From an uncultured Clostridia bacterium (lineage in GTDB: Bacteria; Bacillota; Clostridia; TANB77; CAG-465), in contig CANQYI010000004.1 of the NCBI GenBank assembly GCA_947628005.1, positions 144,042 to 192,475 on the forward strand: DNA of 48,434 bases, given 5' to 3'. Position numbers and translations under genes: made by a program. The notes below the pieces were generated by a model that had not been told where the DNA came from, ran no database searches, and saw nothing but the letters and a program-made list of their open reading frames with translations. Of this stretch, positions 8,242-23,484 are shown piece by piece (position 1 is the stretch's first letter; the number at the start of each line of letters is the position of its first letter).

Positions 8242-9126
8242 ATGGCTGAGCAAAGGTTGAAGCAGTCAAAAAGATTATCAATAATTACAGATGGCTTAAT
8301 ATTTATTTTAGCATTAATATTAGTGTTTTTAATTATAAATATTTTTAACCTGAACTTTAACATATTTTCAAATAACGAATATGAACAACTTGCTTTAATT
8401 TCAAGTGAAGAATCAGTTACAAAAAATATTGAGCAAGAAAATACGTATTATATAAGAAGAATAAAAGATACGTATGGTATAAATGTAAGTTATGGGCAAG
8501 ATACCAAAAATTATGTTAATAAAGTAAATGCTAATGTTGAGTTAAATGAATTAATCACAAATAATAATTTGAAATTATTATTACAATCATTAGAAAAGTA
8601 TCCAATTGATCTTTTTTCTAAGATTAATGAATCTGATTATTCGATAAATATAATACTTGTTGATAGTTTTAATAATAATAATGTGGCGTTAGCATCAAGA
8701 AACAATATTAATGAATATAAAATATACATAAGTAATAATTCTAATTTTGAAAGAGCGTTTCACCATGAAATGTATCACGTACTTGAATATTATATGAACA
8801 GCATAGATAGTAATATAAATAATGCATGGAATTTATTTAATCCGGATGGATTTTATTATAACAGTAATATAGATGATTTAGACAAAGATTATGTTTATTA
8901 TACAAATGCAGATTTAGATAATTCTTATTTTGTAAGCAAATATTCAAAAGTAAGTGATAAAGAGGACAGAGCAGAAATATTTGCTCAGGTTATGATTATG
9001 GAGAAAAAAGCTTCGTACTTAAAAGAGGGACAAAATATATATTATAAGACTATATATATATTAAATAATATACACAAACTTATAACGAATTCAGAAATAT
9101 ATATTGATAAAGTAGTAAATTATTGA
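8242..9126 (+). CDS. Membrane-anchored putative zinc metallopeptidase (HExxH)
   Basis: One N-terminal membrane segment (about 15-36), so the rest is probably extracellular. The motif HHEMYHVLEYY contains H175-E176-x-x-H179, a zinc metallopeptidase signature. A candidate third ligand lies about 65 residues later in EDRAEIFAQ (E241 or E245). This layout resembles the gluzincin-like anthrax-lethal-factor (ATLF) type domains that occur singly in Firmicutes. Family assignment is by motif only; no wider similarity could be tested. SD CGGAGG precedes ATG. Likely co-transcribed with the membrane protein at 7198. Confidence 0.65.
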   Translation: MAEQRLKQSKRLSIITDGLIFILALILVFLIINIFNLNFNIFSNNEYEQLALISSEESVTKNIEQENTYYIRRIKDTYGINVSYGQDTKNYVNKVNANVELNELITNNNLKLLLQSLEKYPIDLFSKINESDYSINIILVDSFNNNNVALASRNNINEYKIYISNNSNFERAFHHEMYHVLEYYMNSIDSNINNAWNLFNPDGFYYNSNIDDLDKDYVYYTNADLDNSYFVSKYSKVSDKEDRAEIFAQVMIMEKKASYLKEGQNIYYKTIYILNNIHKLITNSEIYIDKVVNY

Positions 9127-10674: not shown

Positions 10675-12075
10675 ATGAGAAAGTTAACAAGAGGCGATTT
10701 GCTAGAAGTACAAAAGCCAGTTAGATATGTTGGCGGAGAATTTAACGAATGTTTCAAAGATAAAGAAAATAAGGTTAGAATTTGCGATGCATATTCTAAC
10801 CTTTATGAAATTGGTATAAAAGATAAAACATTTAATGACATATACTATATTCAAAATTTAGATAATGATGTATTCTGTGAAAGAGTATTTTTCCCATATT
10901 GCGATGTTCTAAATATTATGAAACAGAAAAATATTGCACTTACTTCACTAGAATCTAATGACTTTTTAACTAAATTTGATATGATAGTATTTAACGTAAA
11001 TGATGTACTAGAATACCCAAATGTCTTGAAAATGTTAGAAATATCATCATTTCCGCTATATTCTAAAGTTAGAATGGAGGAGAGGTATCCATTTGTGATG
11101 GCTTTAGGTGATGCTATTAATTTAAATTGTCTTCCTTTATCTGAGTTTGTTGACTTTTTTATAATAGGTAATGCAAATGATGCATTAAAAGTTGTAGTTG
11201 AAAAATATAAGAGCTTTAAAAGTAATAACTTGCCTAAAATAGAATTTTTAAGAAGTTTGAAAAATGTACAAGGTATATATGTACCTTCAATCCATAAAAA
11301 TAATAATTTAATTTATAGTGCTAAGGATTCAGAACTTTCGTTAAAAAATAATAAATTTATATGCCCTAATATGTATGAAGCATATAATAAAACAGTAAAC
11401 ACAATTGATGTTTATACTATTTCAAATAAGATTAGGACTTTATTAGATTTAAAAAATATAGATTTAGATACAACAAAGCAAAGTATACAAAACCTTTTAA
11501 ATCAAAATGTAAATCTAAATATAAGGTTTACTATAGGACTTCCTACAGAAACGTATGAAGATATTTTAGAAACTATAAAATTTATAAAAGATATAACTAA
11601 TAATTCCACATTAAATAATATCACAGTAACATTTGATAATTTTTTAATTTATCCACATACAAAATTACAGTGGTATAAAAAAAATAATCTTGATGAACTT
11701 ATAAATAAACAAAAATTTATATTAAACAATATAGAAGATTTAACTGATAACATTAATTTTACCTTTATAAGTCCTCATATAAGTTTATTAAAGCAATTAT
11801 TATTGTTTTGTGATCAAAATTTATTTAAATTCTTAGAAGAATTAAAAAATCAAAATTTTTTCTTCTATGATGAGTTAAATAAAGGGTGTATAGAAATTGC
11901 AGAGCAAATAAATATTAATAATTATCAAGAATATTTGAAAGAAAAAAATATAGATTATAAATTTGATTTTAATAATTTTGTGTTGCCAGAATCGCAGGAA
12001 ATAAAACTAAGAAAAGAATACAAAAAATTTTATTTAAATTTACATTCAGAAAATGGAGAGGAAGAAAATTTATGA
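10675..12075 (+). CDS. Degenerate B12-binding/radical SAM-like protein (TIGR03960-related) without cluster cysteines
   Basis: The N-terminal 190 or so residues resemble the TIGR03960 family of B12-binding radical SAM proteins: VRYVGGEFNE, YEIGIKDKTFNDIYYI, ERVFFPYCD, LTSLESNDFLTKFD, then PLSEFVDFFIIGNANDA. A later match is RFTIGLPTETYEDILETIKF. The stretch between these blocks, where the family carries the CxxxCxxC iron-sulfur motif, is only about 100 residues long here and contains no such motif; a single Cys is found. The reading frame is intact, so the protein is probably expressed but cannot do radical SAM chemistry in the usual way. Its stop overlaps the smpB start by 4 nt (ATGA). Confidence 0.75.
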   Translation: MRKLTRGDLLEVQKPVRYVGGEFNECFKDKENKVRICDAYSNLYEIGIKDKTFNDIYYIQNLDNDVFCERVFFPYCDVLNIMKQKNIALTSLESNDFLTKFDMIVFNVNDVLEYPNVLKMLEISSFPLYSKVRMEERYPFVMALGDAINLNCLPLSEFVDFFIIGNANDALKVVVEKYKSFKSNNLPKIEFLRSLKNVQGIYVPSIHKNNNLIYSAKDSELSLKNNKFICPNMYEAYNKTVNTIDVYTISNKIRTLLDLKNIDLDTTKQSIQNLLNQNVNLNIRFTIGLPTETYEDILETIKFIKDITNNSTLNNITVTFDNFLIYPHTKLQWYKKNNLDELINKQKFILNNIEDLTDNINFTFISPHISLLKQLLLFCDQNLFKFLEELKNQNFFFYDELNKGCIEIAEQININNYQEYLKEKNIDYKFDFNNFVLPESQEIKLRKEYKKFYLNLHSENGEEENL

Positions 12076-12521
12076 GTGATACAAAAAGAATATCTATTGT
12101 AAATAGGGAGATAAACTATAAATATGATATAATTGAAAAAATGGAATGTGGAATATCACTCAAAGGTACAGAAGTTAAATCTATAAGAGATAATGGATGT
12201 AATTTAAAAGATAGTTTTGCAATGATAAAAAATAATAATTTAATATTAAAAAATATGCACATAAGTCCCTATGAAATGGGTAATATTAATAATGTTGAAC
12301 CAGAAAGAGACAGAGTACTGCTTGTACATAAAAATCAGATACTTAAATTGTTGCAGTATATTAAACAATCTGGGTATACTTTAGTTCCAAGTAAAATATA
12401 TGAATCAGGTAGATGGATTAAAGTTGAACTTTGTGTTGTAAGAGGAAAAAAATTACACGATAAGAGAGAAACATTAAAAGAAAAAGAAGCCAAAAAACAA
12501 ATTAACATATATAAAGTATAA
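12072..12521 (+). CDS. smpB: SsrA-binding protein SmpB
   Basis: Brings tmRNA to stalled ribosomes for trans-translation. Family blocks are clear: ISLKGTEVKSIRDNGCNLKDS, HISPYEMGN, GYTLVPSKIY and VRGKKLHDKRET, with a basic tail as usual. Length 149 is normal. Starts inside the end of the preceding gene (ATGA), so translation is coupled. No ssrA gene was seen nearby. Confidence 0.95.
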   Translation: MSDTKRISIVNREINYKYDIIEKMECGISLKGTEVKSIRDNGCNLKDSFAMIKNNNLILKNMHISPYEMGNINNVEPERDRVLLVHKNQILKLLQYIKQSGYTLVPSKIYESGRWIKVELCVVRGKKLHDKRETLKEKEAKKQINIYKV

Positions 12522-12550
12522 GGAAATTTATTCCCTATACTTTATTTTTA
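12513..12550 (+). terminator. Terminator at the end of smpB
   Basis: AAAGTATAAGG (12513-12523) pairs with CCTATACTTT (12534-12543) with one bulged base, then ATTTTTA. It overlaps the smpB stop and lies between convergent genes. Confidence 0.7.
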
Positions 12551-12763
12551 GTTAGTTTTAATTGTACTGTTATCATTTGAATTACATGAACTAATAAAAG
12601 TAGAAATTATTGCTAAATTTTGACCGACGGCCTGTAATAAAACACTTAATAAATTTATATCATCAACAGACATATTTTTAGATATTATTATTGCAAGTAT
12701 TGCACTATATATGACAAGCCCATCTGCTGAATAAGTACAATCATAGCATGATAAATTATTCAT
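12548..12763 (-). CDS. Small protein of the Cys-rich sporulation-type operon (gene 3)
   Basis: 71 residues, not recognised. The N terminus has two Cys in LSCYDCTYS, the middle is hydrophobic/helical (LVIYSAILAIIISK), and the C terminus has one Cys. It begins one base after the stop of the preceding minus-strand gene (TAA-T-ATG) with no SD of its own, so translation is probably coupled. As third gene behind the sigma-K-like promoter at 13438-13464 it may be a spore-coat or mother-cell protein. The order and coupling are seen; the function is inferred. Confidence 0.6.
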   Translation of the reverse strand: MNNLSCYDCTYSADGLVIYSAILAIIISKNMSVDDINLLSVLLQAVGQNLAIISTFISSCNSNDNSTIKTN

Positions 12764-12764
12764 A

Positions 12765-13046
12765 TTAACTACAAGATATATTTAATATATGACTACAGCA
12801 ACAATCTGATGATATATAAATTTGTGTTTCATAGTTATAGATATTTCTAATTATTACATTTTGACCATTTTGTATAATAACAGTACATCTTGTATCACTT
12901 TGAGATATTAAATTTAAAATATATCCATTTAACAAAGTAATGGTAGTAGAAAATGAATTGATTAAAACTTCTTTCTCGTATATCTGCTTACAATTATTGC
13001 AAATAATACAGTCTCTTATATTTAAAGTTACATTTATCTCTTGCAT
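12765..13046 (-). CDS. Small Cys-rich protein of the sporulation-type operon (gene 2)
   Basis: 93 residues, not recognised. Cys occur in two clusters: CIICNNC near residues 13-19 and CCCSHILNISC at the C-terminal end. The middle is rich in Ile, Asn, Thr and Ser with a beta-strand pattern (TTITLLNGYILNLI). An excellent SD (AAGGAGATGA read on the minus strand) precedes the ATG. It lies 31 nt downstream of gene 1. Clustered terminal cysteines around a beta core would suit a disulfide-crosslinked coat or exosporium protein, by inference. The first cluster could alternatively bind metal. Confidence 0.7.
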   Translation of the reverse strand: MQEINVTLNIRDCIICNNCKQIYEKEVLINSFSTTITLLNGYILNLISQSDTRCTVIIQNGQNVIIRNIYNYETQIYISSDCCCSHILNISCS

Positions 13047-13077
13047 ATACTATCATCTCCTTTATATATGTATTAAA

Positions 13078-13416
13078 TTAAAAAGCACTACAACATGTAT
13101 TGTTACTACTTTGGCAAGAACAGTTAACTGCTATAGCACCGATGTATACTCTTAGAGAACCAGTTTCAATAGGCAAGTCAAAAATTTTATAATTATCAAG
13201 CGGTATGTTGAAATTTATGTCTGGAATAAAGTTAGGGTTACTTATACGTATAGTAATGTAATTTCTAGATATACTTGTAAATGTGACACTATATCCAAAA
13301 CTTAAAGGAAATACTGAATTTAATGTTGCATTAGTATATACATTATCGAATTGCCTAGGGATACCATTTTCACATCTTCTTTGTCTTATTGCAATAGTAT
13401 AACAACAATTATTCAT
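13078..13416 (-). CDS. Small Cys-rich protein of the sporulation-type operon (gene 1)
   Basis: 112 residues, not recognised. Starts MNNCCYTIAIRQRRC and ends with CSCQSSNNTCCSAF, so Cys pairs sit at both ends of a beta-rich middle (VTFTSISRNYITIRI). No signal peptide. SD GAGGTGG lies 5 nt before ATG. It is the first gene after a promoter that matches the sigma-K consensus closely, which points to late mother-cell expression. This supports, but does not prove, a spore-coat or exosporium role. Confidence 0.72.
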   Translation of the reverse strand: MNNCCYTIAIRQRRCENGIPRQFDNVYTNATLNSVFPLSFGYSVTFTSISRNYITIRISNPNFIPDINFNIPLDNYKIFDLPIETGSLRVYIGAIAVNCSCQSSNNTCCSAF

Positions 13417-13437
13417 CTAGACCACCTCATATAATTA

Positions 13438-13464
13438 TATTTTATGAAAATATTGAAAAAAAGT
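13438..13464 (-). promoter_or_regulatory. Sigma-K-like promoter of the Cys-rich operon
   Basis: Read on the minus strand: AC at 13464-13463, exactly 16 bases, then CATAAAATA at 13446-13438. This matches the Bacillus sigma-K consensus (AC, 16-17 bp, CATAnnnTA). The start site would fall near 13431, directly before the SD of the first gene. The AT-rich context lowers certainty. Confidence 0.55.
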
Positions 13465-13590: not shown

Positions 13591-13851
13591 ATGGATATAC
13601 TTAAGGTATCTGCAAAATCAAGTCCAAACTCAGTTGCAGGAGCAATAGCTGGTCTTGTAAAAGAAGAAGGTAGAGCAGAAATGCAAGCTATTGGAGCAGG
13701 AGCAATTAATCAAGCTGTTAAAGCTGTGGCAATTGCAAGAGGATTTGTTGCACCAACAGGGGTTGAACTTACATGTTCTCCAGCTTTTACAGAAGTTTCA
13801 ATTGATAATGAAGAAAAAACAGGTATAAAATTTATTGTAGAAGCAAAATAG
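13591..13851 (+). CDS. spoVS: Stage V sporulation protein S (SpoVS)
   Basis: 86-residue Alba-like protein needed for normal sporulation in Bacillus. Highly conserved sequence: ILKVSAKSSPNSVAGAIAG, GAGAINQAVKAVAIARGF and the C-terminal TGIKFIVEAK. AGGAGG precedes ATG and a terminator follows, so it is a single-gene unit. Confidence 0.96.
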   Translation: MDILKVSAKSSPNSVAGAIAGLVKEEGRAEMQAIGAGAINQAVKAVAIARGFVAPTGVELTCSPAFTEVSIDNEEKTGIKFIVEAK

Positions 13852-23049: not shown

Positions 23050-23484
23050 ATGAAAAATGGTGTTTCACTTTTAGTTGTAATACTTGCAATATCTATAATG
23101 TTAGTATTGATATCAACAGCTTCCATTATAGGAACTAGAGCAATTATTACAGCAAACTTTGACGAATTTAATTTAACTTTAAAAAGAGTATCAGATGAGG
23201 TAAATCAGTATTATATTGAAAACAATGAACTACCAATAAGAGTAGAAAATATTAACATTGAAAGTTATTCTGAATTGTATTCTTATATTAGTAAAAAAAC
23301 AAATGATACAGGTGCTAATTTTTATGTAGTAGACTTAGATAAATTAAATGATAATACAATTCAAAAAGGTAGAGGGCAAACTTCTAGTTTAGATGTATTT
23401 ATTGTAGCGGAAAATTCACATAATATTTACTATTTAGCAGGATTTACATATAATAAAGAAAAATATTTTGGACTTAGCAAATAA
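23050..23484 (+). CDS. Prepilin-like membrane protein
   Basis: 144 residues. The N terminus KNGVSLLVVILAISIMLVL looks like a class III (type IV prepilin) leader: a short basic segment, Gly, then an uninterrupted hydrophobic helix. The usual Glu at position 5 of the mature protein is absent, as in many clostridial pseudopilin-like proteins. The rest (about 110 residues) is a small soluble domain containing YYIENNELPIRV. No pilus assembly genes are nearby, so export by prepilin peptidase is an assumption; a simple N-terminal anchor is the alternative. SD AAGGAGG. Confidence 0.65.
   Translation: MKNGVSLLVVILAISIMLVLISTASIIGTRAIITANFDEFNLTLKRVSDEVNQYYIENNELPIRVENINIESYSELYSYISKKTNDTGANFYVVDLDKLNDNTIQKGRGQTSSLDVFIVAENSHNIYYLAGFTYNKEKYFGLSK

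Follow-up and report, generated by a model that had tools for sequence, protein, structure and literature searches.

A conserved sigma-K-type operon encoding paralogous beta proteins, likely of the spore surface, in a family of uncultured gut Clostridia

Three short genes, here termed A, B and C, lie in tandem on the minus strand of a stretch of 48,434 nucleotides from an uncultured Clostridia bacterium (the window), behind a sequence that resembles a promoter of the late mother-cell sigma factor sigma-K, and the question that this locus raises is whether their products belong to the surface of the spore. In the preliminary description of this DNA, the genes had been read as a Cys-rich operon for a disulfide-linked layer of the coat or exosporium, of no recognised family and next to spoVS. 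The locus comprises the following features.

12072 to 12521, plus strand: smpB (NCBIfam SmpB), convergent with gene C; kept in 15 of the 20 relative loci that were extended
12511 to 12545: hairpin where C and smpB converge, likely a terminator for both (from fold energies)
12548 to 12763, minus strand: gene C, open reading frame of 71 amino acids, with Cys at 6, 9 and 60
12765 to 13046, minus strand: gene B, open reading frame of 93 amino acids, with Cys at 13, 16, 19, 54, 82, 83, 84 and 92
13078 to 13416, minus strand: gene A, open reading frame of 112 amino acids, with Cys at 4, 5, 15, 99, 101, 108 and 109
13422 to 13428, minus strand: ribosome-binding site of gene A, GAGGTGG (from the sequence); GAGGTG-like in nearly all relatives
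13438 to 13446, minus strand: predicted -10 element, CATAAAATA (from the sequence); CATAnnnTA in 29 of 30 relatives
13463 to 13464, minus strand: predicted -35 element, AC (from the sequence); kept together with the -10 element in 29 of 30 relatives
13591 to 13851, plus strand: spoVS (Pfam SpoVS, E 1.5e-37), divergent and outside the operon

The three Cys-bearing open reading frames were found exactly where the preliminary description had placed them, and are separated by 31 nt (A to B) and 1 nt (B to C). The dN/dS of close pairs was 0.03-0.17 (A), 0.05-0.23 (B) and 0.09-0.27 (C), with 0.03-0.28 as the range overall; from these low values it follows that all three genes are translated and constrained, i.e. 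by sequence comparison they are under purifying selection. The mean Cys content is 5.4% for A and 5.6% for B, with 3-13 Cys in each protein. Relative to the 1.1% Cys in 35 larger plus-strand open reading frames of the window, the claimed Cys richness holds for A (P = 3e-4) and B (P = 1e-5), and for C only marginally (P = 0.04).

Genes C and smpB converge and end 26 nt apart, with a strong hairpin inside, for which fold energies of -17.5 kcal/mol on the minus strand (z -6.7) and -12.2 kcal/mol on the plus strand (z -3.6) were calculated; its T run is in favour of the plus strand. On the other side of the operon, the adjacency to spoVS is real in the window, and was absent from all 20 extended loci of relatives; it therefore carries no functional weight and is taken as incidental, and a functional link to spoVS was ruled out for want of synteny. 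The neighbour that is conserved is smpB.

Two further plus-strand genes of the window may be mentioned as separate observations. The gene at 10675-12075 gives a clear match to Radical_SAM_N2 (E 3.6e-37) and a weak one, below the cut-off, to Radical_SAM; the motif CxxxCxxC was not seen by eye in the translation, and the product is possibly a radical SAM relative in which the cluster site has been lost. The gene at 8242-9126 encodes a protein with a predicted membrane anchor, an HExxH motif (FHHEMYHV) and no more than a sub-threshold metallopeptidase match, and is kept in the same neighbourhood of many relatives.

Upstream of gene A, AC and CATAAAATA are separated by a spacer of 16 bp, as had been described, and transcription would start near 13431. 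The bare sigma-K pattern is not rare in the window (nine sites in 48 kb), and the promoter is remarkable because of its conservation across relatives, not because of the count in the window. The strict pattern AC-N16/17-CATAnnnTA was found upstream of A in 29 of the 30 relatives, against a mean of 0.4 regions and a maximum of 4 in 500 first-order resamplings, a comparison that does not constitute a probability, the relatives being mostly of one genus and not independent. It lies mostly 28-37 nt ahead of the start codon of A; the spacer letters vary between species, and the -35 and -10 elements stay. The most distant relatives (G028, G030, G032 and G034) retain a CATA-type -10 element, with the full strict pattern in G028.

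In C. difficile, AC is the mark of sigma-K and ATA that of sigma-E (PMC3789822); with CATAnnnT as the -10 element, AC was present in 30/30 and ATA in 0/30 of the upstream regions of the relatives. Furthermore, the sigma-K-type promoter of C. difficile sigK reads CATATAAT with AC (PMC3789822), and CATATAAT is the commonest -10 form among the relatives' upstream regions. The proposed assignment of the A-B(-C) promoter, and of its regulation, to the sigma-K class is backed by this conservation and is well supported at the level of sequence.

Two other observations concern this pattern. At two of the relatives' loci (L026 and L030), no more than 13 nt separate the -10 element from the ATG chosen for A; probably, either the start codon is further downstream or the transcript is nearly leaderless. 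At position 23429 of the window (plus strand), an intergenic AC-N-CATAnnnTA match lies about 70 nt upstream of an open reading frame of 326 amino acids (MQQYIKQLKIGNVTTKNNVFMGPMAGVSD...), and may be a chance match, given the nine bare patterns in the window.

SigK-, SigE- and SigG-type genes were all found in the genome that contains the window; its SigK-like factor scores 286 bits, i.e. above the NCBIfam SigK subfamily cut-off (252) and under the stricter TIGR02846 cut-off. Among the relatives, a single SigE-like sigma match was found in G001, SigK is truncated in G033, and the A-B pair is present in G024 and G029, in which SigK was not detected. In several relatives, sigK was present only in part or broken into two halves, with ends near profile position 118-133 (G033, C6:3135-3500; G036, C26:71183-71530 and C35:393-746; G039, C31:192544-192927; G056, C34:37292-37681), and sigK could be interrupted by a skin-like element in this order. 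A tie between loss of the A-B pair and loss of SigK is not claimed, since draft genomes and the interruption of sigK confound it and since G024 and G029 carry the pair.

The distribution of the genes was searched in 36 whole genomes of the GTDB family of the window, a group of uncultured Clostridia of the gut whose genomes measure 1.1-2.1 Mb. For 14 relatives the named records are MAGs, assigned to uncultured Clostridia or Clostridiaceae, and several of these come from rabbit or water-deer gut by isolate name. The profile of A matched in 34 of the 36 genomes, comprising all five genera, and the profile of B also in 34, with every B directly downstream of A; the two genomes that miss the pair are both drafts (92 and 90% complete). 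No convincing match to the profile of A was obtained in 391 genomes of the class outside the family (one partial match, E 0.007), nor was one obtained with the profile of B beyond the family among 191 genomes of the order (a single partial match, E 0.002); genome contigs scanned with A alone gave no match. Gene C was present in 17 of 30 operons. The A-B pair is kept in nearly all of the family, with C as an inconstant member.

The product of gene C is a small helical protein with two hydrophobic or amphipathic stretches and Cys on their flanks; it most likely has an accessory or anchoring role and is an optional member. Homologues of C stand alone in relatives, beside ymdB-like, typA-like and other genes (names read from the translations); such loci (L151-L158, e.g. 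L155:4498-4743, L154:4676-4915 and L157:4723-5016) have no strict sigma-K pattern upstream, and one stand-alone C was found in another family of the order (G038). The profile of C reaches weakly into other families. Two to three C homologues match DUF6774/DUF6944 weakly (E 0.01-0.03, not significant), the C of the window being unmatched, and no paper on DUF6774 was found in a search of the open-access literature.

For A and B, structures were predicted with AlphaFold2 using the family alignments (A, pLDDT 82.8 and pTM 0.71; B, pLDDT 92.6 and pTM 0.81). Both models are all-beta with identical strand order and a short helix at 39-41; in the model of A, the first element is a strand at 4-16, and a disordered, Cys-bearing C-terminal tail follows the domain from about residue 101. 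The profiles of A and B align by hhalign over 91 collinear columns (E 1.3e-4, probability 53%), in several genomes the profile of B picks up A (1e-4 to 4e-3), and one B is in turn picked up with the profile of A (7e-5). That A and B are paralogues, which had gone unnoticed when the locus was read as a set of three genes, is well supported.

Searches with A, B and C against Pfam, NCBIfam and PDB sequences gave nothing significant, which bears out the preliminary statement that no family was recognised. DUF5460 was rejected for A (best 4.8e-4, covering about 40 of 375 model positions, below the cut-off), and matches of B to the NOB1 zinc ribbon and to latrotoxin were below the cut-offs and attributed to chance. 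In Foldseek and VIA-align searches, the best scores reached were Z 8.1 for the model of A and 7.7 for that of B; the matches, all of middling quality, were to secretins, C2 domains and designed beta proteins and were read as a common beta arrangement. No solved spore-surface protein was among the matches listed for A or B, in fold or in sequence. A and B constitute a new protein family, probably with a job of a known kind; the family itself is well supported by the sequence comparisons.

Coat and exosporium proteins are made at the sigma-K stage, in the mother cell. A sigma-K promoter implies that the genes are transcribed late in sporulation, in the mother cell, and hence a role of the coat or exosporium type, and to this extent the preliminary proposal is supported, as an inference from the promoter. 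Small beta proteins with no apparent signal peptide (none is visible in A or B), with Cys at both ends and encoded as a paralogous pair, are read on these grounds as structural subunits, and a structural role of A and B at the spore surface is likely. In the reading that we consider probable, A-B(-C) is a late mother-cell sigma-K operon whose paralogous beta proteins co-assemble into a lineage-specific layer or appendage outside the spore. The mother cell at the sigma-K stage would make A and B, the subunits would be deposited from the mother cell onto the developing spore, and A and B would co-polymerise through their strand edges. Disulfides across subunits would then lock the assembly, the predicted partners being Cys4/5 and Cys15 of A, Cys99 and the tail Cys at its C-terminal end, and the Cys of B at either end.

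The conservation of the Cys is consistent with such locking. In A, Cys15 is kept in 29/29, Cys5 in 26/29 and Cys99 in 27/29 sequences, and the tail Cys are variable; in B, 20-23 of 28 sequences retain the Cys columns near 15 and 18 and the one at 82, but shifts of register between species (CxxC, CC) blur which Cys would pair and tell against the proposal. The conserved Cys of A fall at its N-terminus, within the first strand and at its C-terminal end, and a disulfide-linked layer is plausible.

The strategy of disulfide-stabilised assembly itself is well known. CsxA of the Clostridium sporogenes exosporium is Cys-rich and self-assembles into disulfide-linked spore arrays, and boiling in 2 M DTT is required to take its crystals apart (PMC7333573); CsxA and Ena1B, which are not homologous to each other, are precedents for the mechanism proposed for A and B. 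CsxA and A/B are both Cys-rich clostridial proteins with disulfide self-assembly (predicted for A/B), but are set apart by size and Cys count (about 33 kDa and 25 Cys for CsxA; 9-13 kDa and 3-13 Cys for A and B). Likewise, CotY/CotZ/ExsY (PF10612) are Cys-rich proteins of the sigma-K-era outer spore layer, but A and B do not match this family, and Spore-coat_CotZ was found in 0/35 relatives, with a positive B. subtilis control. A and B are themselves Cys-rich with conserved Cys (Cys5, 15 and 99 of A are nearly invariant), and by analogy may work like the Cys-bearing spore-surface proteins of the sigma-K stage.

A more specific alternative, which we judge unlikely, is that A and B are the subunits of a pilus-like appendage of the endospore that works like S-ENA or F-ENA without being related in sequence; the subunits would stack by strand augmentation, and their N-terminal Cys would be stapled to Cys that other subunits carry at the C-terminal end. 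In Ena1B, the N-terminal Cys10/11 bond Cys109 and Cys24 of other subunits (PMC8619143), and Cys4/5, 15 and 99 of A come in a similar order. Furthermore, Ena1A/Ena1B (DUF3992, PF13157) are, as are A and B, a small all-beta paralogous pair of similar size, with Cys near the N-terminus, on the first strand and at the C-terminal end and with late mother-cell expression (predicted for A and B); sigma-K is believed to control the ENA genes (PMC12921279). However, A and B have no sequence or profile similarity to Ena: the hhalign probabilities are 3.3% and 0.3%, and Pfam Enas gave 0 matches among 29 A and 28 B, when the same Ena alignment recovered the solved Ena 7a02 and 8pdz as a control. In the model of A, the first strand begins at residue 4, which would leave no room for a 15-residue N-terminal connector as in Ena. 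No Ena or F-ENA entry was among the fold-search matches listed, an absence that leaves a jelly-roll fold possible. F-ENA (DUF4183, PF13799) are beta proteins of about 10 kDa on spores, also in Clostridia (PMC11952670), and small beta proteins as are A and B, but are linked by N-terminal hooks; A and B have no DUF4183 match, the DUF4183 search in the relatives reached no A or B locus, and no collagen-like partner or anchor was seen beside the A and B genes.

The Cys might instead bind zinc, with the CxxC, the C-terminal Cys and a conserved His of B as the site and with A and B as small metal-binding spore proteins; B often carries CxxC near 15-18 and C-x0-2-H near 82-86, His86 is nearly invariant, and the weak NOB1 matches are to a zinc ribbon. 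Those Pfam matches are under their cut-offs, however, several B carry CC for CxxC or miss the C-terminal Cys, and the paralogue A has no such set, so that zinc binding appears very unlikely. The operon could also be expressed late in sporulation for products other than a surface structure, e.g. mother-cell factors for maturation of the spore or a secreted small protein, since the promoter gives time and compartment only, and since C has hydrophobic stretches and stands alone elsewhere. Against this, the small size, beta fold and conserved terminal Cys of A and B, together with the lack of a visible signal peptide and of a match to an enzyme or regulator family, are better explained by structural proteins, and we regard a non-structural role as distinctly improbable.

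Spore-surface proteins diverge fast, and most lineages have no recognisable ones; to our knowledge, the uncultured gut Clostridia have barely been studied as spore formers. Taking up again the reading of A and B as co-assembling subunits outside the spore, they might even constitute a third, independently evolved disulfide-stapled endospore appendage or lattice, with a fold new to spore biology, in one small-genome gut lineage with no recognisable Ena, DUF4183 or CotZ, an extension that we hold to be rather doubtful. They would be a further apparent case of unrelated Cys-bearing proteins adopting one assembly strategy. A and B are small and soluble-looking, so that their assembly is testable with recombinant proteins and without growing the organism, and the lineage-wide, single-copy and sigma-K-driven A-B pair offers a handle on the spore coats of uncultured gut Clostridia.
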